A stretch of 41,303 nucleotides of DNA, taken from contig DAHWHN010000006.1 of the NCBI GenBank assembly GCA_027335685.1, positions 1 through 41,303 of the forward strand. The letters are read 5' to 3'. The position numbers and the translations under genes were made by a program. Within the stretch, counting starts at the first letter, position 1. Each line of letters begins with the position of its first letter. The notes under the pieces were generated by a model. It did not search any database. It saw only the letters and a program-made list of their open reading frames with translations, and was not told where the DNA came from. The DNA is from Acidimicrobiaceae bacterium. GTDB taxonomy: Bacteria > Actinomycetota > Acidimicrobiia > Acidimicrobiales > Bog-793. Below, piece after piece: positions 4,980 through 41,284 of the stretch.

Positions 4980-6140
<1,161 letters not shown>

Positions 6141-15276: not shown

Positions 15277-15286
15277 CGCTCAGCGC
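15270..15286. terminator. Compact inverted repeat between convergent genes, candidate bidirectional terminator
   Basis: GCGCTGA-cgc-TCAGCGC, 7-bp perfect arms containing both stop codons. Confidence 0.4.
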
Positions 15287-17028
15287 GGACCGAACCTGCA
15301 GAACGTCACCGGTTCGAACCCGGCACCGATGTGGGCCGCCTCGACGTCGCAGGCACGGGCGACGAGCCCGGGTGCGCCGAGCCGGGCGAGGTAGCGCGAC
15401 GTCCCCTTCGGCGTCGAGAGCCCGTGCCGGGGCGGCACGTCGACGAACACGACGTCGATGTCGCCTCCGTCACGGCGCACGCGTGCAAGCGCCCGGTGGA
15501 CGAGCACGCGGTTGGCCGGCGTGAGGAGGTTCCCGATGCCGCCGATCGCGACGAGGCGCTGCGGGAGCTGGGGGAACAAAAAGCCCATCGGCTGGCCACC
15601 GACCTCGACGACTGCGTCGGTCTTGTCGTTGTCGAGCACGTGGGGGAGCTGGAGGCTGAAGTACCGGCTCCCGAACGGCACCCGCAGCCAGTAGTTCCCC
15701 GGCCACGCGGTGGCGGCGCAGAGCGCGCAGACGACAAGGACCGTCGGTACCAGCCCGCCCGCAGCTCGGGCGCGCCACGGTGACGTCGCGGGGGCGAGCG
15801 CGGCGAGGCGGCGGAGGACGGCGACGATCACGACCGGCGAGAGCACCTCGAGCGGCAGGACGTAGCGGTAGATGCTGAAGACCTTCATCCAGACGGCCAA
15901 CGAGACGGCGAAGGTCACGATGAGGTAGCGGTCCGCGTCCGCGTCCCGGGTCGTGCCCGTCTCGGCTGCGACCACCCGGGCGTCGTCGAGCGGCGACGCG
16001 GCGACGGCTCGCCGGCCGACGGCGCGCCAGAGCAGGCGGGCGGCGCCGGCGAGGACGAGGAAGCAGGCGAGGATGTACGCGAGGGGCAACGAGAGCTCGC
16101 GGAAGCGGATCTCGCCGACCAAGAGAGGGTGCGCGACCCACCGGAGCGGGAAGCTCAGGCCCGCGAGCACCGATCGCGGGCCGTACCCTCCCCCGGCGAG
16201 CCGGGGCTTCGGGACGTACGGCGAGTGGAAGATGCCGAACGACGCCTGCGTGAAGGCGATGGGGTCCCCGTAGTGCACCCAGAGGAACCAGCTCCAGTAG
16301 CCCGAGGTCGCAGCGACGCCGGCCACGCCACCGGCTGCGCCCGCTCCGAGGCGTTTTGCCCGATCCCGCAACGAGCCCCCGACGGCCACGAGCCCGACGA
16401 CGATCCCGACGGCCACCGGAAGCTCCGAGAGCTTGAGGCCTGCGCCCGCCCCGGCGAGGGCCCCGGCGAGGGCCCAGCGCCACAGCTCGCCGGGCGCCCC
16501 CCGCCTGTCGACCGCCTGGAGGGCGAGCAGGACCGCGCCGACGAGGGGAACCGCGACGATCGTGTCGCCCATCGAGTTGCCGATCTGCGCGGCGAACCCG
16601 CCTGCCACGGCCGCGGCGACGCCGGTCGCGAAGCCGACGACCCATGAGCGCGTGAGGCGGTGGGCCACGAGGACGACGAGCAGCGGACCGCAGCCTTGCA
16701 CCGCGCCGACGACGGCCGCTTCAAGCCGGGGGGGGCTGTGGCCGATCAAGAGATAGATCGGCACGTCGAGCAGCGGGTTGATGAGGGACTGCAGCTGCGC
16801 CGCGTAGACGTCCACGCCGAGGCGGTCGTGGAGGAACGCATAGGCGATGTAGTAGTGGTAGTTGAGCAGGTCGTAGTTCGCGTCCTGGCCGATCGCGAGC
16901 GCCGCGAGGGCGCAGCCGAGCGGGAACGCGAGGAGCAGCGCGCGCCGAAGCCCGGGCGCGTGGGCACGCGCACCTGCGCGCACGGCCCCTGGCACGCGAG
17001 CTCCCTGGTGCGTCCCGGTGCGCTTCAC
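15280..17028 (-). CDS. Polytopic membrane protein, GT-C glycosyltransferase-like (paralogue A)
   Basis: Multiple TMs; GCALAALAIGQDANYDLLNYHYYIAYAFLHDRLGVDVYAAQLQSLINPLLDVPIYLLI; GTG start. Confidence 0.8.
   Translation of the reverse strand: MKRTGTHQGARVPGAVRAGARAHAPGLRRALLLAFPLGCALAALAIGQDANYDLLNYHYYIAYAFLHDRLGVDVYAAQLQSLINPLLDVPIYLLIGHSPPRLEAAVVGAVQGCGPLLVVLVAHRLTRSWVVGFATGVAAAVAGGFAAQIGNSMGDTIVAVPLVGAVLLALQAVDRRGAPGELWRWALAGALAGAGAGLKLSELPVAVGIVVGLVAVGGSLRDRAKRLGAGAAGGVAGVAATSGYWSWFLWVHYGDPIAFTQASFGIFHSPYVPKPRLAGGGYGPRSVLAGLSFPLRWVAHPLLVGEIRFRELSLPLAYILACFLVLAGAARLLWRAVGRRAVAASPLDDARVVAAETGTTRDADADRYLIVTFAVSLAVWMKVFSIYRYVLPLEVLSPVVIVAVLRRLAALAPATSPWRARAAGGLVPTVLVVCALCAATAWPGNYWLRVPFGSRYFSLQLPHVLDNDKTDAVVEVGGQPMGFLFPQLPQRLVAIGGIGNLLTPANRVLVHRALARVRRDGGDIDVVFVDVPPRHGLSTPKGTSRYLARLGAPGLVARACDVEAAHIGAGFEPVTFCRFGPR
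16855..16919 (-). repeat. Left arm of 65-bp inverted repeat (2 mismatches) shared with 17383-17447
   Basis: Direct comparison: revcomp tcggctgcgccctcgcggcgctcgcgatcggccaggacgcgaactacgacctgctcaactaccac. Confidence 0.95.
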
Positions 17029-17270: not shown

Positions 17271-19223
17271 ATGGCGCACAGGGCGCCGGCAACCACGGCA
17301 GGGACGCGTCGGCCCGACCGCGCGACGACTCCACCCGCCAGGCTCCGCTGGCCCGAGCGCGCCGTCCTCGCGCTCCTCCCCGTCGGCTGCGCGCTCGCGG
17401 CGCTCGCGATCGGCCAGGACGCGAACTTCGACCTGCTCAACTACCACGCCTTCGACCCGTACGCGTTCCTCCACAACAGCCTCGCCGTCGACGTCATCCC
17501 CGCGTCGCTGCAGAGCTACCTGAACCCGCTCATCGACGTCCCGTTCTACGCGCTGATGACCCACGTCCCCCCGCGTTTCGAAGCCGCGATCGTCGGCGCC
17601 GTCCAGGGGCTCAACCTCGTGCTCGTCGCGTGCATCGCCCGCCGGGCGACCGGGTCACGGCTGCTCGCGCTCGCGGCGACGATCGCGGCCGGGGTCGCGG
17701 GAGGGTTCGCGTCCGAGCTCGGCAACTCGATGGGCGACACGATCGTGAGCATCCCCGTCCTCGCCGGCGTCTGGTGCGCGCTCGTCGCGATCGAGCGCGG
17801 ATCGGCCACGCCAGGTGCACGACCAGGACAGGCGCGCCGCCACCGGACGCGCCGAGACGCGGTGGGCCACGACGACGCGAGGCGCGCCGAGACATGGTGG
17901 TGGGCTGCCGCAGGTGCCCTGGCGGGGCTCGGGGTCGGCCTCAAGCTGTCCGAGCTCGAAGTCTGCGTCGGCCTGGTCGTGGCAGCCGGAGCCGTCGCAG
18001 GATCGTGGCGCGATCGCCTCCGGCGCCTTCTCGTCACCGGGCTCGCGGACCTTGCGGGCCTGCTCGCCACCGCCGGGTACTGGACGGTCCACCTCTGGCT
18101 CACCTACCACGACCCGCTCGTGTTCGACGCCTCGTCGAACGCGCTCTTCCCGACCCCGTACCTTCCCGCGGCAGCGGCCCAGGGGCGGGGCTTCCTGCCG
18201 GCGAACCTCTTCCAGGCTCTCGTCTATCCCCTCTACTGGTTCGTGCACCCGCTCGCGGTCGCGGAGATCCCGCTGCGCGAGCTCTCGATCCCGCTCGCCT
18301 ACGTCCTCACCGCAGCCCTGGTCGTGGTCGTCGTCGCCCGAGCGATCCTGCGCACGGCACGGGCTGGGGCTCGGTGGGCGCGCCGGAGCGCGCCTGGCGC
18401 AGCCGGCGCAGCCCCCGACCCGCTGCCCGCGTCGCGGGCGGACGACCATGTCGCGGCGCAGGCCGACCGCTTCTTCCTCGTGCTCTTCGGCGTCTCGCTC
18501 GCCATCTGGACCAAGCAGCTCGGCGTCTACCGGTACCTCATGCCCGTCGAGACCCTCGCGCCGCTCGTGATCTGGGCAGCCGCGCGGCGGCTCTCGCTCC
18601 TCGCCGCCGAGCGCCGGGGAGGCGTGCCGGGCCGGGCAAGCCGGCGCCGGCGCGCCCTCGCGGCGAGCTTCGTCGTCGCGTGCACCGCCTGCGCCGCGAC
18701 GGCCTACCCGGCGAGCTACTGGCTGCGCGTGCCTTTCGGGACCCGCTTTTTCACCGTGCCGACTCCACCCCTGCTCCAAGGGCGGCGACCCGACGCGGTG
18801 CTCCAGGTGAGCGAGCAACCGCTCGCCTTCGTCTACACCGTCCTTCCGAGCCGGATCATCGCCGTCGGTTACCTCGGCAACATCCTCGACCCGACCTACA
18901 TCCGGCTCGCCGACGACGCCGTGCGCCGCGCCGTCGGCGCCGGGGGTTCGGTGCTCGTCGACTTCGTCGGCTCCTACGGTCCCGGCCTCCGGGTCCCACC
19001 CGGCACGAGCGCCTACCTCGCCGAGCTCGGCCTCGGGCGCCTCGCCCCGGACGCCTGCGACATCGACCGTGCCCACGTCGGGGCTGCGCCCTTCTACCTC
19101 ACGTTCTGCCGGCTCGGGCCCCCTCCTCCGGCACGCCCGTCGCCGCGCGCCGCGCGCGGACATGGCGCGCCACCACGTGCTCGAGCCGCTCCACCATCTG
19201 CCGGCCGACCGTCGCCGAGCTGA
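17271..19223 (+). CDS. Polytopic membrane protein, GT-C glycosyltransferase-like (paralogue B)
   Basis: GCALAALAIGQDANFDLLNYHAFDPYAFLHNSLAVDVIPASLQSYLNPLIDVPFYALM; end-to-end similarity to paralogue A. Confidence 0.82.
   Translation: MAHRAPATTAGTRRPDRATTPPARLRWPERAVLALLPVGCALAALAIGQDANFDLLNYHAFDPYAFLHNSLAVDVIPASLQSYLNPLIDVPFYALMTHVPPRFEAAIVGAVQGLNLVLVACIARRATGSRLLALAATIAAGVAGGFASELGNSMGDTIVSIPVLAGVWCALVAIERGSATPGARPGQARRHRTRRDAVGHDDARRAETWWWAAAGALAGLGVGLKLSELEVCVGLVVAAGAVAGSWRDRLRRLLVTGLADLAGLLATAGYWTVHLWLTYHDPLVFDASSNALFPTPYLPAAAAQGRGFLPANLFQALVYPLYWFVHPLAVAEIPLRELSIPLAYVLTAALVVVVVARAILRTARAGARWARRSAPGAAGAAPDPLPASRADDHVAAQADRFFLVLFGVSLAIWTKQLGVYRYLMPVETLAPLVIWAAARRLSLLAAERRGGVPGRASRRRRALAASFVVACTACAATAYPASYWLRVPFGTRFFTVPTPPLLQGRRPDAVLQVSEQPLAFVYTVLPSRIIAVGYLGNILDPTYIRLADDAVRRAVGAGGSVLVDFVGSYGPGLRVPPGTSAYLAELGLGRLAPDACDIDRAHVGAAPFYLTFCRLGPPPPARPSPRAARGHGAPPRARAAPPSAGRPSPS
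17383..17447 (+). repeat. Right arm of 65-bp inverted repeat (2 mismatches) shared with 16855-16919
   Basis: tcggctgcgcgctcgcggcgctcgcgatcggccaggacgcgaacttcgacctgctcaactaccac. Confidence 0.95.
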
Positions 19224-20400
19224 AGCGCTCACCGACGACGGCAGCCGCCGACGCGCCGAGCCGGGCGCGCACGGCGGGGTGCTCGTAGAGCATGCGCAGC
19301 CGCCTCGCTGCCTCGCCGACGTCCGGCTCCGCCCAGGTCTCCCCCGCGACGTAGACGTTGCGCGCCGCGGGGTTGAAGCGGAGCTCGCCGGCGTCGACGG
19401 CGCACGTGTGGTAGCCGACCGGGCAGCCTGTCGAGATGTCGAGGAAGTCGCACGGCCCCGAGTAGCCCGTCGCGACGACAGGGCGGCCGGCGGCCATCGC
19501 CTCGGCGATCCCGAGCCCGAACCCCTCTGCCCGGTGCAGCGAGAGGTAGACGTCGCACGCCGACGTCAGCGCGGCGAGCTGGCTGTCGCTCATCTCGGTG
19601 TCGAGGAGCGTCCCGCCGGCGTCCGAGACGGCGCGCGCGAGCGCGAGGTGCGCCTCGGGCAGGGTCGCGAGGTTGATCGTCTTCACGACGAGGTGCGCGC
19701 GACGCGCCCGCTCGGCCGGGGAGAACGCCCTCCGGTACGCCTCGACGGCGCCGAGGGGGTTCTTGCGCGCCAGCGTCGAGCTCGCGTCGAAGCTGCAGAG
19801 CACGAGGAAGCGGTCCTCGGGCAGGCCGAGCGCGCGGCGCGCACCGCCCTGCCACGCCTCCCCGGCCGAACCGTCGACAGCGGTGCCGGTGTGCCCGCAG
19901 CGACCCGCGTCGGTCCCGACCGGTCCGTCGTCGACCACGCAGGGCACGACGGCGACCGGACAGGTCGCGTGCCGCTCGAAGACCTCCGCCACGAAGCGCG
20001 ACGCCACCCAGATCTCGTCGACCCGACGTGTCTCGCGGACGAGGTCCGGCGCCAGCGTGGAGAGCTCCCAGAACCACGAGACGACGACGGGTCGCGCGAG
20101 CGGCTCGGGCCGCAGGAAGGACTCGGGGATGACGTGGAACTCGTTGACGTTCAAGAAGAACAGGTCGACGCCGTGGGGCCGGCCACGCGGGAGCTCGCGC
20201 AGCTGCGCGGGCAGGCGGTGCGGTGCCCGAGGCGCCCCGTAGTCGTAGTCGACGAGAGCGACGGGAACACCCGCCTCGACGAGCGCGAGGACGCTGCGGC
20301 GTGCCGCCTGCGCGAGGCCTGTCGTCGACTCCCAGCTCGCGATCGCGTTGACGCCTGGTGGGCGCCGGAGCGCACCCGCCGGCCCCGACGCCGTGGCCAC
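19099..20400 (-). CDS. Glycosyltransferase family 4
   Basis: SWFWELSTLAPDLV...VDEIWVASRFVAEVF...RKNPLGAVEAYRRAFSP...CDVYLSLHRAEGFGLGIAEAMAAGRPVVATGYSGPCDFLD; GTG 20400 (or TTG 20403). Confidence 0.88.
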   Translation of the reverse strand: MATASGPAGALRRPPGVNAIASWESTTGLAQAARRSVLALVEAGVPVALVDYDYGAPRAPHRLPAQLRELPRGRPHGVDLFFLNVNEFHVIPESFLRPEPLARPVVVSWFWELSTLAPDLVRETRRVDEIWVASRFVAEVFERHATCPVAVVPCVVDDGPVGTDAGRCGHTGTAVDGSAGEAWQGGARRALGLPEDRFLVLCSFDASSTLARKNPLGAVEAYRRAFSPAERARRAHLVVKTINLATLPEAHLALARAVSDAGGTLLDTEMSDSQLAALTSACDVYLSLHRAEGFGLGIAEAMAAGRPVVATGYSGPCDFLDISTGCPVGYHTCAVDAGELRFNPAARNVYVAGETWAEPDVGEAARRLRMLYEHPAVRARLGASAAAVVGERFSSATVGRQMVERLEHVVARHVRARRAATGVPEEGARAGRT

Positions 20401-20410
20401 CAACCCTGCC

Positions 20411-21898
20411 TCAGGGCCGCCGCGCCACGAGCGCGCACGCGCCGGCCACGAGCGCCGCGTCGCCAAACCGGGGCGCGAGCCGGCGGAGCTCGACGTCGGC
20501 GAAGCCCCGCGCCGCGACCGCGAACGCGAGGAACCCGCAGCCGACATGGCGGTCCGACACCGTGACGGCGACGGCCGGCTCCGTCCCGGCAGCGGCCCCG
20601 ACGGGGTCGGACAGGTCGATCACGAGGACGCCACCCGGCTCGATCGCGAGCGCCGCGAGGTCGACGAGCTCGACGATCTCACCCGCGGTCAGGTAGCCGA
20701 CGACGCGGGCTGCCGTGAGCGCGCCGACGCTCGACCTGTCGAGACCACGCACGTGCTCGACGACGTCGTCGACCGCGACGACGCCGGCGGCCACGGCGTC
20801 GTCGGCCACAGGGCCGACGTCGACGCCGCGCGCGTCCAGGCCCGCCTTGCGCAGCAGCTCGAGCCACTCGCCTCGTCCCGCCCCGACGTCGAGCACGGGC
20901 TTGGTCGATTGCGTCCCGACGATGTCGGCGAGGTAGCAAGCCGCACGTGCCTCGGCACGAGATGCCGGCTCGACGAGCGCGTCGGCGTAGGCGGCCCACA
21001 GCTGCTCGACGGTCCCCGGGGAGCCGGCGAGGCGAGCGGGAAGCGGCCCTGCGTCGCCACGCGCAACGTGCGCCGCGCCGAGGGCGAGGTCGACCTGGGC
21101 GAGCCGGAGACGCAGGGCGGCGAGCTCGCGCTCGACGGCCCGCTCGGTGGCGCGCAACCTCGCCGTGAGCGCCTCGCCCGCCGCACGCTCGGCCACGAGG
21201 CGCTCGGCGACATCGTCGGCCGCGACCTCGACGCGCGCCGAAAGGTCCCCAATCTCGCTCCGGATCGAGCCGATGCCGTCGTGGTAGCGGGAGAACGACT
21301 GCCGGTCGACGAGGTCCAGCTCCGCGCGCAGCCCGTCGAGCGCCTCCTCGACAGATGCGAGCGCGTAGCCGTGCGCCTCGAGCTTCGGCACGGCCGCCTC
21401 GATCGCCCAACCCTGGCGCTCGAGCGCCGCGCGCAGGTCGCGCACCGCGTCCTGGAGCTCGGCGAGGGTGCCCAGCGCAGCGTCGAGGCGAGCGGCGTCA
21501 CCGTCGGCGCGAGCGGCGAGGGCGTCGAGCGCGTAGCCGTGCGCCTCGAGCTTCGGCACGGCCGCCTCGATCGCCCAACCCTGGCGCTCGACGCGCCCGG
21601 CGACGTCGTCGACCCGGGCGGCGAGCGCTCCGGACTCGGCGCCCAGCGCGGCGAGCGCAGGACCGGCGTCGCGCGCCAGGCTCTCGACCCGCTCCTCGTC
21701 GAGGGCGGCGCCGAGTGCCCGCACGTCGTCACGCAGCGTGTGGTTGAACGCGACCTGCTCGCGCAGGACCGGCCACGCGATCCGCGCGACGACGCGCTGC
21801 GCGAGACCGGCACGGCGGCCACCTGATCTGTCGAGCCCGAGGTCCGGCGACGGGCGCGCCCCGGCGGGACCGTCGCTGTCCGGCGTCGGCTGCGACAA
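20411..21898 (-). CDS. Coiled-coil protein with C-terminal SAM methyltransferase-like domain (ccMT-1)
   Basis: Long Ala/Glu/Leu/Arg coiled-coil N-half, then PVLDVGAGRGEWLELLRKAGLDARGVDV; similar in architecture to 24553-26007. Confidence 0.82.
   Translation of the reverse strand: MSQPTPDSDGPAGARPSPDLGLDRSGGRRAGLAQRVVARIAWPVLREQVAFNHTLRDDVRALGAALDEERVESLARDAGPALAALGAESGALAARVDDVAGRVERQGWAIEAAVPKLEAHGYALDALAARADGDAARLDAALGTLAELQDAVRDLRAALERQGWAIEAAVPKLEAHGYALASVEEALDGLRAELDLVDRQSFSRYHDGIGSIRSEIGDLSARVEVAADDVAERLVAERAAGEALTARLRATERAVERELAALRLRLAQVDLALGAAHVARGDAGPLPARLAGSPGTVEQLWAAYADALVEPASRAEARAACYLADIVGTQSTKPVLDVGAGRGEWLELLRKAGLDARGVDVGPVADDAVAAGVVAVDDVVEHVRGLDRSSVGALTAARVVGYLTAGEIVELVDLAALAIEPGGVLVIDLSDPVGAAAGTEPAVAVTVSDRHVGCGFLAFAVAARGFADVELRRLAPRFGDAALVAGACALVARRP
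21358..21423. repeat. 66-bp perfect direct repeat, copy 1
   Basis: Identical to 21526-21591; encodes (minus strand) the ERQGWAIEAAVPKLEAHGYAL segment. Confidence 0.97.
21526..21591. repeat. 66-bp perfect direct repeat, copy 2 (period 168 bp = 56 codons)
   Basis: Identical to 21358-21423. Confidence 0.97.
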
Positions 21899-21942: not shown

Positions 21943-24540
21943 CTACGAGACCCTAACGCCACCCGGGAGATGTGGCAGGACGATCTCGGCGGCTGTGTCC
22001 GCCGGCCGGACCGTCGAGACGAGGGCGGCGAGGGCGTCACGAGCCTGCGAGGCGACGGCTGCGGGGAGCCATGCCGTCTCCGCCGTCTTCCTCGCCCGCG
22101 CCCCGACCCGCCCGCGCAGGGCCGGGTCCGCCGCGAGCCTGCGCATCCAACGGGCTGCTCCGGCTACGTCCGGCTCGAGCCAGAGATAGCCGGCTCCCGG
22201 AGGTGCCGCCGACTCCGAGTCCAGGTAGAAGTCGGCGTCGGTCGCCTCACGGACCTCGTAGCCGACACGGCAGCCGTCCCGGCCGCTCGTGTGACCGTCG
22301 AGGGCCGACCAGCTCGTCGCGAGGACGACCTTGCCGCACGCCATCGCGTCGACCAGCAGGAGACCGACGGGCTCGGCACGGTGGAGGGAGACCACGACGT
22401 CGCTCTCGTCGAAGAGAGCTTGCAGCTCGCCCCGCGAGGGGTCGAGGACGATCCGTCCCCGGACCCGCGCCAGCTCCTCGGCGAGGCGGGCGGCGGCCTC
22501 GGGCCGCGCCGCCGATCCCCCGAACGCCACGGTGAGGCGCGCCAGGCGACCCCGCTCGCCGCTCGGGAAGGCCGCCCGGAAGGCGTCGACGACGGCGAAG
22601 GGGTTCGCATAGGCGACGCCCGTCCCCTCCTCGACCGCCGCGAGGAGCTCGCACGGCCCCGAGCGAGCGCTCCGTTCCACCGGCACGCCGGCGCAGGCCG
22701 GCCAGGCCACGATGCGCGCGGGCACAGAGGTGCTCATCGCCGCGACCTCTGCGCCGTGCTCGCCCGCGACCCACACGTGCTCGGCGAGCTCGAGCAGCAG
22801 CCTGTAGTCCGTCGTGAGCGGGGTGAGGCTCGGCGCGAGGACCGCCACGACGCGGTGGCCCCGCGCCCGGCGGACACGGGCCAGCCGGCCCATCCGCCCC
22901 GCCGACGCGTCGTCGGCGACGTAGAGGGCGACGACGTGGGGGCAGCGGGTGACGAGGTCCCGGTCCGCGCGGTCCATCTCCTCCTCGGCGAGCTGGAGGA
23001 CGGCGCGGTCCCGGGTCGCGCGCGCCGCCGCCTCGGCCCGGTCGCCGTGCTCGCTCCGGCCCGCCGCGTCCGCCGCTCCGTCCGCCCGACCGGGTCGACC
23101 GGGCTCCGGGGTGCCCCCCGCCGCGCCCGGTGACCCGGGGGCCACCGTGGCGCCCGGCTGCGACCGGTCGCCGTCTCGGACCGCCGGGCCGAGCGGTGCA
23201 GACAGCTCGGCGGCGACGACGTCGATCCCGCCGGCGCCGAGCGCGTCCACGAGGCGTCGGGCTCCTCGCGCCAGCTCGCCCGGGCTCCGGACGACGAACA
23301 GGTTCGCGCCGGCGAGCGACCGGGACCCGAGTGCCAGGTGCCTCCGGCTCGCCACCTTTCTCGCGCGCTGGGCAGCGCAGTGCTCGACGTGGGCCACGTA
23401 CTGCTCTGCCACGACGCGGTAGGTCGCCTCGCTCTCGACGAAGCGCCTCGCGGCCTCTCCGGCGCGCCGGCAACGCTCGGGGTCCGCCGCGACCGCGTCC
23501 ATGATCTCGACGAGGCTGTCGTGCTCGCGGTCGAAGTCCGTCGTCACGCGCCAGCAGTACCGGCTGTCCAGCTCGCGGAACTGCAGCACGTCGCTCACGA
23601 TCGCAGGCCGACCGGCGCCGAGGGTCCGCATCAGCGTCGCGCTCATCTCCCCGGCCGTCGGCCAGCGCAGCGAGATCCCGACGTCGCACAGCGACATCTC
23701 CCGCTCGAGCTCGTCGAGCGGGAGGTTCGTCTTCACCTCGAGCGCGCCGGCGAGGTCGGGCCGCTCTGCGAGCCGGCGCACCTCGATCTCGAGCAACCGG
23801 TCGTCGGCGCGTCCGGCGATCACCATCCGGGCAGCCGGCCGGCGGGCACGGACCTCGGCGAAGGCCTCGACGATCGGCATGATGCGCTTGTAGTAGTTGA
23901 TCCCGCCGAAGACGCCGAAGACGACCTCTCCCGGCCGTCGTGGCTCGAGGCGCGGCACGTCGGGGACGATCTGGGCAGGAAGCTGGATCGTCGCGATGTC
24001 GGCACCGCCGTAGCGCCGGCGCATCTCACGTGCCATCGCGCTCGAGTGCACGAGCGTGCGCACGTTGGACTCGACGATCCGCCGAGCCAGGAGGACGGCG
24101 ATCCGGTCGAGGTCGATCCTGCCGTTGCCGGCGTCCACGAGCGGCAGGTCGTCCTCCGGCGCGATCGCGGGGCAGTCGTACGCCACCTCGTCGCGGAATA
24201 TCGTGCTCCGGGCGTCCCCGCACATCTCCGCGGTGAAGTCCGCGAGAGACGGGTCGTGGAGGACGAGCAAGCCGGGCTCCTCGAAGGCCCGGCCGTAGAT
24301 GAACCGGTGGAAGTTCGGGTTGTTGCCCATCTGGTAGATCGCGCAGTCGTACTCGCCGGGGAGCACGCTCGAGTCGCCGACCACATCGACCCCGTCCGGC
24401 GCCCGGGCGCTCCAGAGCACCTCGTCGCTGACCACGGCCGTCACGTCGAGCAGGTTCCTGAGCTCTTCGAGCAGCTCGTAGCTGTAGTCGCCGATCCCCG
24501 TGCGCTCGGGCGGCAACGGGGAGAAGAACGCGACCCGCAC
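21943..24540 (-). CDS. Two-module GT4-GT4 glycosyltransferase fusion; second module divergent
   Basis: N-module FFSPLPPERTGIGDYSYELLEEL ... DVGISLRWPTAGEMSATLMRTLGAGRPAIVSD; C-module NPFAVVDAFRAAF ... DVVVSLHRAEPVGLLLVDAMACGKVVLATSW. Confidence 0.85.
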   Translation of the reverse strand: MRVAFFSPLPPERTGIGDYSYELLEELRNLLDVTAVVSDEVLWSARAPDGVDVVGDSSVLPGEYDCAIYQMGNNPNFHRFIYGRAFEEPGLLVLHDPSLADFTAEMCGDARSTIFRDEVAYDCPAIAPEDDLPLVDAGNGRIDLDRIAVLLARRIVESNVRTLVHSSAMAREMRRRYGGADIATIQLPAQIVPDVPRLEPRRPGEVVFGVFGGINYYKRIMPIVEAFAEVRARRPAARMVIAGRADDRLLEIEVRRLAERPDLAGALEVKTNLPLDELEREMSLCDVGISLRWPTAGEMSATLMRTLGAGRPAIVSDVLQFRELDSRYCWRVTTDFDREHDSLVEIMDAVAADPERCRRAGEAARRFVESEATYRVVAEQYVAHVEHCAAQRARKVASRRHLALGSRSLAGANLFVVRSPGELARGARRLVDALGAGGIDVVAAELSAPLGPAVRDGDRSQPGATVAPGSPGAAGGTPEPGRPGRADGAADAAGRSEHGDRAEAAARATRDRAVLQLAEEEMDRADRDLVTRCPHVVALYVADDASAGRMGRLARVRRARGHRVVAVLAPSLTPLTTDYRLLLELAEHVWVAGEHGAEVAAMSTSVPARIVAWPACAGVPVERSARSGPCELLAAVEEGTGVAYANPFAVVDAFRAAFPSGERGRLARLTVAFGGSAARPEAAARLAEELARVRGRIVLDPSRGELQALFDESDVVVSLHRAEPVGLLLVDAMACGKVVLATSWSALDGHTSGRDGCRVGYEVREATDADFYLDSESAAPPGAGYLWLEPDVAGAARWMRRLAADPALRGRVGARARKTAETAWLPAAVASQARDALAALVSTVRPADTAAEIVLPHLPGGVRVS

Positions 24541-24552
24541 GGACGCGCGCCC

Positions 24553-26007
24553 CTAGGGCCGGTGACCGACGACCACGTAGTCGGCGGGCGCGAACAGGTG
24601 GACGTTGACGGCGTCGACGACGGCACCGACGGTTTCGGCCCACGGCTCGTCCGGCTTCGGGCGCTCCAGTCCCTGCGCCTGCTCCGCCCGCTCGAGCCGG
24701 CGGACCTCGACGTCGGTGAAGCCACGTGCGCCGACGAGGAAGGCGAGCAGCGGCGGCGGCAGCGGGCGCCGGTGGGTCGGGTCGAGGTAGAACGACGACG
24801 CGCCGACCACGAGGTTCTCCGGGTTCTGCGTCTCGAGAAGGATGAGCCCGCCCGGCCGGATGGCCCGAGCGCTGAGCTCGACGAGCTCGATGAGCTCGTC
24901 GACCCCGAGGTGCTCGACGACCTGGATGGCCGTGACCGCACCGAGGGAGGCGGCGGGCACCCCGAGCAGGTGCGCGCGCGCGTCCTCGACGCGGACGTCG
25001 AGGCCGCGTGCTCGGCACGAGGCCGCGTGCTCGGCGTTGAGCTCGACCCCGTAGGCCGGGACGCCTCCGGCGGCGAGCACGTCGAGGAGCTCGCCGCGGC
25101 CAGAGCCGACGTCGAGGACTGGTCCTCCCGCGTCGGCGAGGTCGTCGAGGTAGAGCCGGACGCGCTCGCGCACGACGGGCTCCGGGCCGCGAAAGGCCTC
25201 CGCGAACACCGCTTCCAGGCTCGCGAAGCCGCTCGGCACGCCTGCGAGCTCCGCTGGCGCCGGCACGTCGGGAAAGCTGCGGCGGACCTGGGTGAGGAAC
25301 AGGTCGAGCTGGCCCATGCGGAGCCAGACGTCGTCGAGTGCGGCCCGCCAGGCATCGCGGTGGGTCGCGGCGCCGTCGAGCGCCTCGAGCGCGGCGGAGC
25401 GGGCAGCCTCGGACGCCGCGGCGATCGCGTCGTCGATGCCCGCGCGCACGGCCAGCACGTCGTCCGTCACGGCGGCCAGCCCGGTCGACACGGCCTGCGA
25501 CGCGATGCCCGACGCAGCCTCGACTGCGGCTTCCCGGACCCCGGGCAGCGCGGACTCGAGGTCGTCGAGGCGCAGCTCGAGCTCGTCAAGGGCGGCGCGC
25601 AGGCGACCGACGCCGTCGTGGTACCGGGCGAGAGCCTGCCGCTGGCCGAGGTCGACCTTGTCCTGGACGAGGTCGATCTGGCGGATGAGGTCTCCGGTCG
25701 CCCGCTCGAGGTGGGTGAGGAGGAACTCGTGGCGGTCGAGCGGCTCCTCGTGGCGGACGAGGACGCTGCTGTGGTGCGCGAGGTCCCCGTCGACACGGGC
25801 GAGACGGAGCTCGTCGCTGTCGAGGCGCGCCCGGACCGCGTCGAGCTCGGCGAGCAGGGCGCGGTTGACCTGGACCTGGTGGCGCAGGACGGGCCAGAGG
25901 ATGCGACCGAGCAGGCGCCGGGCGAAGCGGAACCGCCCCGGGGCGGCCGGCAGCCCGATGTCGGCGTGCGCCTCGGCGACCGACCAGCTCGGGGTCAGGC
26001 CGGGCAC
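24553..26007 (-). CDS. Coiled-coil protein with C-terminal SAM methyltransferase domain (ccMT-2)
   Basis: WPVLRHQVQVNRALLAEL ... RYHDGVGRLRAALDELELRLDDLE ... PVLDVGSGRGELLDVLAAGGVPAYGVE ... ETQNPENLVVGASSFYLDPTHRRPLPPPLLAFLVGARGF; start GTG 26007 is a best guess. Confidence 0.85.
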   Translation of the reverse strand: MPGLTPSWSVAEAHADIGLPAAPGRFRFARRLLGRILWPVLRHQVQVNRALLAELDAVRARLDSDELRLARVDGDLAHHSSVLVRHEEPLDRHEFLLTHLERATGDLIRQIDLVQDKVDLGQRQALARYHDGVGRLRAALDELELRLDDLESALPGVREAAVEAASGIASQAVSTGLAAVTDDVLAVRAGIDDAIAAASEAARSAALEALDGAATHRDAWRAALDDVWLRMGQLDLFLTQVRRSFPDVPAPAELAGVPSGFASLEAVFAEAFRGPEPVVRERVRLYLDDLADAGGPVLDVGSGRGELLDVLAAGGVPAYGVELNAEHAASCRARGLDVRVEDARAHLLGVPAASLGAVTAIQVVEHLGVDELIELVELSARAIRPGGLILLETQNPENLVVGASSFYLDPTHRRPLPPPLLAFLVGARGFTDVEVRRLERAEQAQGLERPKPDEPWAETVGAVVDAVNVHLFAPADYVVVGHRP

Positions 26008-26090
26008 GAGGTATCGCCCGTCGTGGTCGGCTCGCTCGTCGCCATGGCGCGCCCATCGTACCGGGGCCCGCCGCCCCCTGCCGAGCTCGT

Positions 26091-26138
26091 CCCAGCCCAG
26101 CCCAGCCCAGCCCAGCCCAGCCCAGCCCAGCCCAGCCC
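26091..26138. repeat. Pentanucleotide microsatellite (CCCAG)9
   Basis: Nine consecutive cccag units then cccg, between the 26213 gene and ccMT-2. Confidence 0.97.
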
Positions 26139-26212: not shown

Positions 26213-28612
26213 CTAGCGCCCGCTGCGGGCGCGCCAGCGCGGCCGTCGTGGGGCAGTCCGGCGGCGCTCGGCAAGGACGGACTGTGCGTGGGCAAAGCGC
26301 GCCGCGACGACGCGTGCGCGCGCCTCGAGCCCGTGGTGCTCGAGCACGTCGGCCTGAGCAAGCGCCCCGCGCTCGCGCGCAAGGTCCGGGTGGTCGGCGA
26401 CCTCGCGCAGCAGCCGTGCAGCGACTGCGAGGTCCGGCTCGGCCCAGCGCGCGCCGTGCGGGTACGGGTCGTGCGCGACGGGCACGTGGCCCACCGTGTA
26501 GGGCACGAGGTAGGAGTTCTGCTCGGTCATGAAGTCGAGGTTGCCCGAGTAGCCGGTCGCGACGACCGGCTTTCCGAGAGCCATCGCCTCGGCGAGGGTG
26601 AGCCCGAAGCCCTCCGAGCGGTGCAGCGAGACGTAGCAGTCGCACGACGCCATCAGGGCCGACTGCCCGGCCCGGTCGAGGTAGCTGTCGAGGACGACGA
26701 CGTCCGGCCGTCGGCTGGCCTCGCGCTTCAACCGCTCGAGCTCCCCGGCGCGCCGCTGCGCGTTGACCGCCTTGAGCACGAGCACGGGACCCTCGCCCGG
26801 CGCGAACGCCCGGCAGAACGCCTCGAGGAGCCCGAAGGGGTTCTTGCGCTCGACGTCGCTCATCACGTCGAAGCAGAAGAGGAACATCGTGCCCTCCGGG
26901 AGCCCGAGCTCCCGGCGAGAGCGCGCCGCGGCGGGGCTCGGCGCGACGACCGGGAGCGGGAAGGCGACCACTGGAACGGTCGCGACCGCGGCGATCGCCC
27001 GGCGGGTGAACTCGCTGTTGGCCCAGACCTCGTCGACGTAGGCAAAGGACGCCGCGTAGCGGGCCGGGAACTCCTCGAGCTCCCACGCCCACAGGCCGAT
27101 CGTGTAGTGGTCGGCGAAGAACCCCGGCCCCACCCGGGCGGCGAAGCGGGGGAGCTCGTCCGCGTTCACGCAGACGAGGTTGACGTCGAGATCGTCGCGC
27201 CGCGACGCGTCGAACTCGTGGAGCTGCCTGCTCGCCGACGTCACGTCGACGTAGGTCGACGTCGTGATGCCCGCCCGCTCGGCGGCGAGCACCGCGAGGC
27301 GACCGTGCTCGCCGACGCCGGTCTCGGCGCGCAGGTACCCTGCGACGCGTATCCCCGGCCGGGGGGATGCAGGCGCAGGGCCGACGGCGCGATCTGCCAG
27401 CGCGAGACGGGCGTCGAGCCGGCCCTGGGCGACCTCGTGGTGGCTCCACTCGGCGACACGGTCGCTGTCGGCGCCGTCGGGATCCGGGAAGACCGCCTGC
27501 AGGTCCGGGCGGCTCGCATGCAGCGCGGCGAGATAGCGCGTCAGGCGACCACCGGGCCGCTCGTCGGGCACGGCGTTCAGCCAGTCGAGGAACTGCCGGC
27601 CGTCGTCGTCGAAGGGGTTCGGCGGCGCAGCGAGCGCACAGCCGTCGTGCGCCTCACTGTCGAGCAACGCGGCGCGGAAGAGCGCGCGCATGACCCGGTC
27701 GTACGCGAGCCCGTTGCCGAGGCGCCCGAACGCGTACTCCGGCGACACGCCGCCGTGACCCGCAGCGACAAGCCGGCTCGCGTAGTCGTCGCACAGCCTG
27801 GCCAGGCCGGGACGCTCGGACAGCACGATGCGCGGCTGCTCGCCCTGGTGCTTGCTCAGCAGGTGCGGCGCATCCGGGCTGTAACCGCTGAAGTGGAAGA
27901 AGTGGATGGGCTCGCCGTCGAGGCGTGGCAGCACCCCGTCGAAGGCGACCTCGCGGCCATGCAGGTTCCAGTACGCGACGTTGAAAGTCGGATCGTGCAC
28001 GATCGATGTCGGGAACAGTCCGGGCACGAAGTCGACCCAGCGCTGGTCCACGAAGCGCATGTGCACCGGATCGGTCACGCACTCCCGGCGCAGCCGCACC
28101 TTCCAGAAGTCGAGGAACTCCGCGGCATCTCTCGACACCGCGACGAAGCCGAGGTTGTAGATCCCCGACGCGAGGATGTCGCTCTCGGTGACGCTCCGCC
28201 CGTCACGCGGGATCGGTCGGGTCACGTGCGGTGTCAGCACGATGCCGGTCTCGACGGCCCGCTCGCAGAGCTCGTCGAGCGGCGCGTAGACGACGACGTC
28301 GGGATCGAGGTAGAGCACGGCATCCGCGCCACCGGCGAGGAGCGTCTCGAGCAACCAGGGCTTCACGGCCGTCGCGATCTCGAGGACGTCGTAGATCGCG
28401 ACCATCTTCACGAGCTCCTCGGGCGCGATCCCGATCTCGTCGAGGTGGAGGATCCGGAACGGCTCCGCCGACGTGCCGACGCTCCGCTCGAGGTCGTCGA
28501 GCAGCAAGACGTCGAGGACCGATCCGGGGTGGTGGCGCGCGAACGACGTCGCGAGCACACGCGCCGCGGGCAGGTAGTTGCGAGCGACGATCGTGCAGGC
28601 GCGGACGGTCAC
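26213..28612 (-). CDS. GT8-like + GT4 fusion glycosyltransferase
   Basis: N-terminal CTIVARNYLPAARVLATSFARHHPGS ... AVKPWLLETLLAGGADAVLYLDPDVVVYAPLDEL (DxD present); C-terminal GT4 CYVSLHRSEGFGLTLAEAMALGKPVVATGYSGNLDFM; GTG 28612 or ATG 28663. Confidence 0.88.
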   Translation of the reverse strand: MTVRACTIVARNYLPAARVLATSFARHHPGSVLDVLLLDDLERSVGTSAEPFRILHLDEIGIAPEELVKMVAIYDVLEIATAVKPWLLETLLAGGADAVLYLDPDVVVYAPLDELCERAVETGIVLTPHVTRPIPRDGRSVTESDILASGIYNLGFVAVSRDAAEFLDFWKVRLRRECVTDPVHMRFVDQRWVDFVPGLFPTSIVHDPTFNVAYWNLHGREVAFDGVLPRLDGEPIHFFHFSGYSPDAPHLLSKHQGEQPRIVLSERPGLARLCDDYASRLVAAGHGGVSPEYAFGRLGNGLAYDRVMRALFRAALLDSEAHDGCALAAPPNPFDDDGRQFLDWLNAVPDERPGGRLTRYLAALHASRPDLQAVFPDPDGADSDRVAEWSHHEVAQGRLDARLALADRAVGPAPASPRPGIRVAGYLRAETGVGEHGRLAVLAAERAGITTSTYVDVTSASRQLHEFDASRRDDLDVNLVCVNADELPRFAARVGPGFFADHYTIGLWAWELEEFPARYAASFAYVDEVWANSEFTRRAIAAVATVPVVAFPLPVVAPSPAAARSRRELGLPEGTMFLFCFDVMSDVERKNPFGLLEAFCRAFAPGEGPVLVLKAVNAQRRAGELERLKREASRRPDVVVLDSYLDRAGQSALMASCDCYVSLHRSEGFGLTLAEAMALGKPVVATGYSGNLDFMTEQNSYLVPYTVGHVPVAHDPYPHGARWAEPDLAVAARLLREVADHPDLARERGALAQADVLEHHGLEARARVVAARFAHAQSVLAERRRTAPRRPRWRARSGR

Positions 28613-28628
28613 GGTGCTGTGCCTCGGC

Positions 28629-31139
28629 TCAGAGGAAGCGGCGGACCGCGTCGGCGGCCGCACTGGAGTAGCCCTTGCGGAGCTTCTTCTCGATGGCGTC
28701 GACGCGCCGCCGCACGAACCGCTCGGCCTGGGCGACGCCGTGCTCGCGCAGCACCCGATCGCGCGCGCGCTGGCCGAGCACCCGAGCGTCGTCGGGGCGT
28801 GCCGCGACGCGCCGCATCAGCTCGGCAGCCGCGCCGACATCGGGGTCGAACCAGTGGTCGGTTGCGTCGTAGGGCTCCCGTCCCGGACCCACCCGTACGC
28901 GCTCTCCCGGGACGAGCAGGGCGGTCTCGTCGTCCATGAAGTCGAGATTGCCCGAGTAACGCGTCGCGATGACCGGTTTGGCGAGGGCCATCGCCTCGCC
29001 CATCGCGAGCCCGAAGCCCTCTGCCCGGTGCAGCGACACGTAGCACTGGCAACTGTCGATCAGGGCGGCGAGGGCCGGGCTGCTCAGGTAGCCGTCGACC
29101 ACCGCGACGTCCGGCCGCTCCGAGGCCGCGATCAGGAGCTGCTCGAGCTGTGCGCGCCGCTGGTCGCCGTTGACGCTTTTCAGCACGAGCACCGGACCCG
29201 CCCCCGGAGAGAACGCTGTCGTGAAGGCCGCGAGGACACCGAGCGGGTTCTTGCGGTCGAAGCCCGACAAGAAGTCGTAGGTGTAGAGGAAGCAGAACCC
29301 GTCGGGGACCCCGAGCGCCGCCGCGTCGAACGAGGCGTCACGCGACGGTTCGACCACGGGATGGGGAAAGACGTGGACCTCACGGTCGACCGCAGGAGCC
29401 ACGGCGTCCCTGACGTAGCTGCTCGGCACCCAGATCTCGTCGAGCATCGCCGCCGAGACGGCCATCGACGCCGGCAGCGACTCGGTCTCCCAGGCCCAGA
29501 AGCCGACGTTGTAGCGACCGTCGAAGAACTCCGGACCGACCACCGACGCGAAGCCGGGGAGCTGGTCGGCGTTGACCCAGACGAGGTTGATGCGGCGATC
29601 GGCGCGCGGCGAAGCTGCCGCGTCGGCACGGGGCGGGCCCTCGTGGAGCTGGCGGCTCGCGCGGGCACCGATCGTGACTGCAGAGACCTCGACGCCCGCA
29701 GATACGAGCACGTCGAGGGCGAGGCGTGCGGCTTCGCCGACGCCGGACTCGGCGCGCAGGTACCCGGCCAGCGCGACACCTGGCCGCAGCGCCGCGGGCG
29801 CGACGGCGACGGCACCGGTCGGAGCCGACCACCATGGCGTCGCCGCCAGCGCCGTGCGCAGAGCCGGCGGGACGCGCGCCTCGTCGAGCCCGTGCTCGCC
29901 GACCCACTGGCGGAACCTCGCGGCGTCCACCGTCGCGAGCCGCGGGAAGTGCCACACGAGATCCGCGCGCTCGCGGTAGACCTCGACCAGGTAGCGCGGG
30001 ATCTCGGGTGCGAGCGGATCCGCCGGGTCGGGCGCGGCCAGCCAGTCGTAGAACGGCGCGCGGCCGGCCGGGCCGTCGGGGTCGGGCGCGGCCTGTTCGT
30101 CCCACCGGGCCGATGCGGCGGCCCGGCGGACGATCCGGCGCATGCGCTCGTCGACGACCACCGCTTCCGCGCGACCCGGCGGCTCGGTTCCGGCGCTCGG
30201 ACCGCCGTCGGGCTCGAGCGCCGCGGAGCCGTCCATCTGCAACTGCTGCGCCCGCTCGTCGCACAGCCGGCGGAGTGCCGGGTTCTCGCTCAGAAGGACA
30301 CGCGGTCGGCGGCTGCCCGCCGGGCCGACGAGGTACGGCTGCTCGGGATCGAAGCCCTGGAGGTGTGCAAGGACGAGAGGGGCGCCACCGGCACGGTAGC
30401 CGTCGGTCGCGCTCCAGCTGACCGCCCGCTCGTGGGCGTTCCAGGCCGCCACCCCGACGCCCGGCGCCCGGCAGAGCTGCGCGCCGAACAACTGCGGCGC
30501 GAACCCGAGCGCTGGCTGCGCTCGGCTCGGGTGCCCCCCCGGCGACGACGCGAGGTGCCGCAGCGACCGCTGCCACCAGTCGAGGAACGCGCTCGCACCC
30601 GGGGCGACGGCGACGATCCCCGGGTCCACCGGGCCGGCGTCGACGATCTCGGCCTCGCTCGGGGACCACCCGTCGCTCGGCAGGGGGCCGAGCAGGCGGG
30701 GCACGAGGACGGCCGGAACCCCGCCCGGCGGCACGAGGTCGTCGAGCGCCGCGAGCATCACGACCTCGGGCGAGAGCCACACGACCGGGCGACCCCGCCC
30801 GAGCAGCGCCGCCACCAGTGCCGGTGCAAAGCATGCAGCGAGGTCGTCGCCGCTGCACAGCCACGCGAGCTCGTGGCGCCTCCAGGGCTCCAGCGCGAGG
30901 TCGCCGGTGCGCACGATCTCGACCGGCGTCTCGACGCCGGGCAGCGGGTCGAGCCCGGCCCGCTCGGTCGCGCCCGGGTTGCCACCGGCATCGCGCCCGG
31001 CCGAGGTCTCGCCCACCTCGTCGACGAGAAGGACCACCAGTGCCTCGCCCTCGTGGTGTCGCGCAACCGCGCGCGCGAGGGACCGGACCATCCCCCGGCG
31101 ACGGCGTGTCACGGCGGTGCAGACCAGCGGCACCGTCAC
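28629..31139 (-). CDS. GT8-like (degenerate) + GT4 fusion glycosyltransferase, paralogue of 26213-28612
   Basis: N-domain aligns but has VWLSPEVVMLAALDDL where the paralogue has LYLDPDVVVYAPLDEL; C-terminal GT4 CYVSLHRAEGFGLAMGEAMALAKPVIATRYSGNLDFM. Confidence 0.85.
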   Translation of the reverse strand: MTVPLVCTAVTRRRRGMVRSLARAVARHHEGEALVVLLVDEVGETSAGRDAGGNPGATERAGLDPLPGVETPVEIVRTGDLALEPWRRHELAWLCSGDDLAACFAPALVAALLGRGRPVVWLSPEVVMLAALDDLVPPGGVPAVLVPRLLGPLPSDGWSPSEAEIVDAGPVDPGIVAVAPGASAFLDWWQRSLRHLASSPGGHPSRAQPALGFAPQLFGAQLCRAPGVGVAAWNAHERAVSWSATDGYRAGGAPLVLAHLQGFDPEQPYLVGPAGSRRPRVLLSENPALRRLCDERAQQLQMDGSAALEPDGGPSAGTEPPGRAEAVVVDERMRRIVRRAAASARWDEQAAPDPDGPAGRAPFYDWLAAPDPADPLAPEIPRYLVEVYRERADLVWHFPRLATVDAARFRQWVGEHGLDEARVPPALRTALAATPWWSAPTGAVAVAPAALRPGVALAGYLRAESGVGEAARLALDVLVSAGVEVSAVTIGARASRQLHEGPPRADAAASPRADRRINLVWVNADQLPGFASVVGPEFFDGRYNVGFWAWETESLPASMAVSAAMLDEIWVPSSYVRDAVAPAVDREVHVFPHPVVEPSRDASFDAAALGVPDGFCFLYTYDFLSGFDRKNPLGVLAAFTTAFSPGAGPVLVLKSVNGDQRRAQLEQLLIAASERPDVAVVDGYLSSPALAALIDSCQCYVSLHRAEGFGLAMGEAMALAKPVIATRYSGNLDFMDDETALLVPGERVRVGPGREPYDATDHWFDPDVGAAAELMRRVAARPDDARVLGQRARDRVLREHGVAQAERFVRRRVDAIEKKLRKGYSSAAADAVRRFL

Positions 31140-40627: not shown

Positions 40628-41284
<657 letters not shown>

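Follow-up and report, generated by a model that had tools for sequence, protein, structure and literature searches.

The window, i.e. the whole stretch of 41,303 nucleotides analysed here, encodes a coiled-coil protein (ccX) that carries the same cassette twice in its coil and has a degenerate C-terminal methyltransferase domain. An intact coiled-coil methyltransferase paralogue (ccMT) is encoded two genes upstream. The reading that we tentatively prefer, which we place a little below evenly balanced, is that ccX would be a non-catalytic or altered coil paralogue, a spacer or scaffold beside intact ccMT with exchangeable heptad cassettes. It would derive from a paralogous copy that largely lost its catalytic side and kept an enlarged coil, and would serve a membrane-associated complex of glycosyltransferases as a spacer or scaffold subunit, with the intact terminator ccMT as its partner in the cluster. 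Gene conversion would exchange sequence between the cassettes, and blocks of complete heptads could be added or removed, so that the coil can change in length and stay in register. In ccX, the coil seems to have persisted beyond its enzyme. It is a case where the copy of a terminator may have become a pure spacer, and may represent a "ruler" separated from its enzyme. The genome that contains the window (G000) is an Acidimicrobiaceae MAG of 2.39 Mb, 82% complete, and the named relatives of the host are Acidimicrobiaceae and unclassified actinomycete MAGs.

The reading frame of ccX is open over 495 aa (Table 1). A sequence-only reading of the window had described two identical 66-bp blocks that lie 168 bp apart and encode ERQGWAIEAAVPKLEAHGYAL twice, and both statements proved correct. 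The blocks are identical at 66/66 nt with a start-to-start distance of 168 bp (56 codons, or 8 heptads), and translation gives the same residues at positions 104-124 and 160-180. Each cassette has 22 codons, i.e. three heptads, and copy 1 in protein order is the higher-coordinate block (minus strand). As controls against a chance repeat, we used the same gene in the orthologues of two congeners (G014 and G015). The longest exact repeat within the gene was <15 nt in G014 and 16 nt in G015, and the 66-nt identity in ccX is therefore not due to chance. The sequence between the blocks had been taken for diverged and the repeat for a tunable unit of 56 aa. The other 34 residues of both "56-aa units" show no evident mutual similarity and are not recognisable as diverged copies, and a 56-aa duplication was ruled out, the match being limited to 22 codons. 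What stands of the tunable unit is recurrent in-frame recombination at 168 bp; only the 22-codon cassette repeats.

Table 1. Features of the ccX gene and of the surrounding cluster
Feature	Position	Strand	Details
GT4-type glycosyltransferase directly downstream of ccX	19099..20350	-	start approximate
ccX: coiled-coil protein with degenerate methyltransferase domain	20411..21898	-	495 aa; TTG start; stop codon 20411-20413
Methyltransferase-like domain of ccX	20414..21013	-	GAGRGEW (motif I) present; EH/ETPNPEN/FYLDPTH and C-terminal block lost
Helical coil, ccX residues 28-279	21062..21817	-	AF2 model, heptad statistics
QSFxRYHDGIG motif, conserved, between coil 1 and coil 2	21269..21304	-	
Cassette copy 2, ccX residues 160-180	21358..21423	-	DNA identical to copy 1
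Cassette copy 1, ERQGWAIEAAVPKLEAHGYAL, ccX residues 104-124	21526..21591	-	22 codons
N-terminal module of ccX, residues 19-52 (DLGL..R..GLAQRVVARIAWPVLREQVAFN), conserved, basic, amphipathic	21743..21844	-	alignment
Double GT4-type glycosyltransferase between ccMT and ccX	21943..24540	-	
ccMT: intact coiled-coil methyltransferase paralogue	24553..26007	-	GTG start; 3dli_A TMt 0.90, rmsd 2.1
Glycosyltransferase, GT4-type C-terminal half	26213..28663	-	synteny conserved
Glycosyltransferase, GT4-type C-terminal half	28629..31139	-	synteny conserved

ccX belongs to a cluster in which the gene order GT - GT - ccMT - double GT4 - ccX - GT4 is conserved in close relatives. The GT4 neighbours, the absence of a kinase from ccX and its domain order (coil N-terminal, methyltransferase-like part C-terminal), all proposed earlier, were confirmed. 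The motifs of ccMT are intact, and gene order is what links it to ccX. A split machine, in which ccX would be a former terminator reduced to a ruler, its coil retuned by cassette recombination and paired with an intact capping methyltransferase, is possible and, in our view, doubtful.

Several other elements surround these genes. Between a GT gene and ccMT (26091-26138), the pentanucleotide CTGGG (minus strand) is perfectly repeated in 9.6 copies. This repeat closely precedes a conserved TANNNT box, is absent in G014, G015, G027 and G013, and is a candidate phase-variable promoter of the intact methyltransferase. A short ORF encoding MATSEPTTTGDTSCPA (25995-26045, minus strand) begins with an ATG 9 nt past TACGAT and ends with a TGA overlapping the initial codons of ccMT. 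This arrangement recurs, with differing residues, in the same four genomes, and the ORF resembles a conserved leader that is translation-coupled and possibly leaderless. Moreover, two similar, divergently oriented multi-helix membrane proteins (15280-17028 and 17271-19223), whose synteny with the cluster is conserved, gave no Pfam match. Further away, a RodZ_C-like protein has an Asp-Ala run encoded by an in-frame GCGTCG tract of nine copies (5566-5619), and the window's end holds a perfect GGGCTC array of 9.3 copies (41221-41276).

The methyltransferase part of ccX was compared with 59 columns conserved in 25 relatives. ccX retains 32-34 of them in the three congeners (G000, G014 and G015), and the orthologue of a sister genus (G027) retains 42/59. 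None of the three congeners has kept the EH motif (GY here), ETPNPEN, FYLDPTH or the C-terminal block. SAM motif I is still present, as is the acidic residue that follows strand 2. In addition, the Pfam methyltransferase score of ccX is under its cut-off, and the C-terminal AF2 model is poor (3dli match, TMt 0.54). Descent from the 3dli-like / Methyltransf_23 class I family is clear, and the substrate-side motifs of an active member of this family are gone. The earlier suggestion that ccX is a chain-terminating methyltransferase is not supported in view of these losses, which concern motifs kept in the 25 relatives; the intact enzyme is the ccMT paralogue. With so many motifs gone and an intact ccMT in the same cluster, a terminator role of ccX itself is doubtful. 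A residual or changed methyltransferase activity is possible, given that motif I and the acidic residue have been kept.

ccX could also be an active methyltransferase with a changed substrate specificity and itself the ruler-terminator, which we consider rather improbable. The intact motif I and acidic residue are consistent with this alternative, as are the dN/dS of the methyltransferase part between G014 and G015 (0.23) and the order of N-terminal module, coil and methyltransferase, which is that of the Wzt-linked family. However, the motif losses shared by three congeners, the low Pfam score and the C-terminal model, with its TMt of 0.54 vs. 0.90 for ccMT, argue against it. Enzymes with intact motifs occupy the ccX slot in three relatives (G012, G013 and G030), and G027 is intermediate. 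A coil-only relative of 194 aa, with the N-terminal module and without a methyltransferase domain, is encoded among the same glycosyltransferases in G001 (L030, 1498-2079); its orthology to ccX is unsure.

The structure prediction supported an extended helical coil, as the sequence-only reading had expected: the AF2 model of ccX (mean pLDDT 76.5) has helices at residues 28-119, 125-175 and 180-279. Over residues 100-200, the hydrophobic period is 3.48 (0/500 shuffles as strong) and the a+d heptad score reaches a z of 7.4 (0/5000 shuffles). The periodicity of the whole coil (residues 55-275) is weaker, its Fourier power being matched by 58/500 shuffles and its a+d score by 4/5000. In the AF2 model, the helix is interrupted at the HGY of both cassettes. 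The cassettes may therefore act as hinges, and inserting a further one need not just extend a straight rod; this model is a monomer, which cannot tell a straight rod from a fold-back. The best 18-mer of the N-terminal module (muH 0.61, net charge +5) is in the top 0.2% of the protein's windows, and the module is a candidate membrane or polymerase anchor. The coil is thus predicted to extend between the catalytic end and the putative anchor, as in WbdD, with a helix broken at the cassettes.

We measured coil lengths across the family between conserved landmarks (21 proteins for the linker). Coil 1 varies from 33 to 182 aa across relatives and coil 2 from 47 to 136 aa; the linker between coil and methyltransferase is 66-69 aa long in 19 of the 21 proteins, and 80 and 88 aa in the others. 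Coil 1 has 147 aa (21 heptads) in G000 and G014, and 150 aa in G015, where a 3-aa insertion disrupts the register. With 182 aa (26 heptads), coil 1 of G027 is longer than 147 aa by exactly 35 aa, i.e. 5 heptads. Coil 2 has 54, 65 or 76 aa in the ccX-slot proteins (steps of 11), and 92 vs. 136 aa in the congeners G018 and G020 (+44). In-frame tandem arrays were detected by Tandem Repeats Finder in 13 of 76 coil regions, in 0/77 methyltransferase halves and in 0/75 downstream kilobases (Fisher p 6e-5 and 1e-4, respectively). For all arrays with a period of at least 18, this period is a multiple of three. In-register, stepwise variation of coil length within the family, and with it the presence of a length-variable coil in a family of glycan chain-terminators, is well supported; the rod seems to evolve in length by complete coiled-coil steps. 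Cassette number and coil length differ by exact heptad or hendecad steps between genera, but the predicted gain or loss of exactly 56 aa was found neither within the genus nor among G000, G014, G015 and G027.

Individual arrays differ in their units. The coil methyltransferase of G020 (L051, 8968-10680) has about 7-8 tandem 11-aa units EQYDAVNTRIQ (33-bp units, 91-96% matched, period 3.66), and its congener G019 (L050) has three KELSDTKYSLA units. A Planctomycetota relative (L094, 7240-10089) carries 4.5 units of 144 bp (48 aa) in the pre-methyltransferase region, and a Halochromatium relative (L116, 7393-9591) has 3.7 units of 42 bp with 100% identity. No usable literature turned up on length variation of such coils by tandem repeats.

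The coil could also be an oligomerisation or tethering device whose length drifts neutrally and measures nothing. The wide range of coil 1 among relatives is in line with such drift, and in ccMT the dN/dS of the N-terminal module and coil exceeds that of the methyltransferase part. Nevertheless, this explanation is unlikely, as several length changes preserve the heptad or hendecad register, and both WbdD and WbbB have been found to set glycan length through the length of their coil (PMC11231755).

The dN/dS of ccX is 0.23-0.50 vs. 0.11-0.24 for ccMT, and its branch length is 1.01 vs. 0.17. These dN/dS values and the long branch indicate that ccX is under weaker yet still purifying selection. 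Motif loss, the long branch and relaxed selection would also be expected of a decaying pseudogene of a duplicated terminator. This origin is very unlikely, since the frame is open in three species with a dN/dS clearly below 1, so that neither a broken frame nor an absence of purifying selection is observed; moreover, synteny is strict and the coil is kept at 147-150 aa in all three.

Returning to the exchangeable cassettes of our preferred reading, the ccX orthologues of the congeners G014 and G015 share its start and its gene order and are 52-54% identical to ccX; that of G027 shows ~43% identity. G027 and the host genus form a clade with a support of 99/98. Across 397 genomes of the order, ccX matches fall from an E-value of 5e-162 (G027) to 2e-85 and, because of this drop, the form with cassettes seems confined to these two genera. 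Within the host genus, the number of repeats, which had been expected to vary between strains, is invariant, with two cassettes in 3/3 genomes. The two cassettes of a genome match each other at 66/66 nt in G000, 51/66 in G014 and 55/66 in G015. Since the same two cassettes have diverged in the congeners, the identity in G000 points to their local homogenisation. G027 has its own cassette pair, identical over 52 nt with a spacing of exactly 168 bp, and a third clear cassette 35 aa upstream. As the pairs of both G000 (66 nt) and G027 (52 nt) are identical, homogenisation most likely occurred at least twice. The 3' part of the G000 cassette (PKLEAHGYAL) is copy-1-like and its 5' part (GGTTGGGCGATC) resembles copy 2 of G015; a clear direction of conversion from copy 1 to copy 2 was dropped on account of this 5' part. 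Although G000 is a single MAG that is 82% complete, an assembly artefact can hardly explain the 66-bp identity, as the independent assemblies of G014 and G015 share the two-cassette layout at 56-59 codons and G027 has a separate 52-nt identity at the same distance.

The family is spread over Actinomycetota, Pseudomonadota, Acidobacteriota and further phyla. We also surveyed the surroundings of 77 of its loci, which come from many phyla, counting as Wzt-like any ABC ATPase with a YSxGM signature. Such an ATPase was found near 40 of the 77 loci; in 31 cases it is upstream on the same strand, and most of these are adjacent. In E. coli O9a, wzt is followed by wbdD, an order that these 31 loci resemble. 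A WbdD-like genomic setting is found in the wider family. No Wzm/Wzt gene was detected in the window's cluster or in its synteny clade, and the ccX locus does not show the wzm-wzt linkage of WbdD. Of 35 genomes of the host family, 32 contain Wzt_C; in the congeners it lies at a separate locus with other GT4 genes. Its lack in G000 is best put down to genome incompleteness; as both congeners have Wzt_C, we withdrew this lack as an argument against an ABC route. An ABC pair on contig C122 was ruled out as Wzt, being Drr-like. The literature on smtA/wzt in Xanthomonas and on methyltransferases of the common polysaccharide antigen provided nothing usable.

Finally, we compared ccX and its family with known systems. 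Polysaccharide length has been shown to be set by coiled-coil rulers in a few systems of Klebsiella and E. coli. The coil of WbdD bears the terminator at its distal end and binds the membrane and the polymerase with the other; coil length and recruitment set glycan length, and the O8 protein has no kinase (PMC3482155, PMC11231755). Like WbdD of E. coli O9a and O8, the ccMT/ccX family combines a methyltransferase-type domain with a long coil that has a basic amphipathic end; many members directly follow wzt, and ccX shares the absence of a kinase with O8 WbdD. In contrast, the polarity of the family is mirrored, with the N-terminal module first and the methyltransferase C-terminal, and ccX has lost its catalytic motifs in a cluster without wzt. 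WbdD matches the family profile by general class I methyltransferase likeness (E 0.002-0.007 over motif I; E 0.002 over ~65 positions) and without specific sequence homology. The closest structure, 3dli (a SAM methyltransferase of Archaeoglobus fulgidus, known from its structure only), matches the profile with an E-value of 7.7e-63 and the ccMT domain over 221 residues (TMt 0.90); the solved chain has no coil, and ccX matches it poorly (TMt 0.54). In WbbB (O12) and ORF6-O7 of Klebsiella, a coil also separates the terminating domain from polymerising glycosyltransferases, but their terminators are a Kdo transferase and a methyltransferase-kinase at the N-terminus, and their glycosyltransferases are fused in one chain, whereas those of the ccX cluster are separate proteins (PMC11231755). 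ccX, which has no intact terminating catalytic domain, cannot be assigned as a WbdD-type member because its catalytic motifs are lost. By context and layout, the family works like a WbdD-type system, and a glycan ruler role is plausible for it; for ccX itself, control of glycan length is an inference. The family places its enzyme at the opposite chain end from the known rulers and carries tandem arrays in the coil and none in the enzyme half, and its natural coil-length variants could show whether coil length predicts glycan length.
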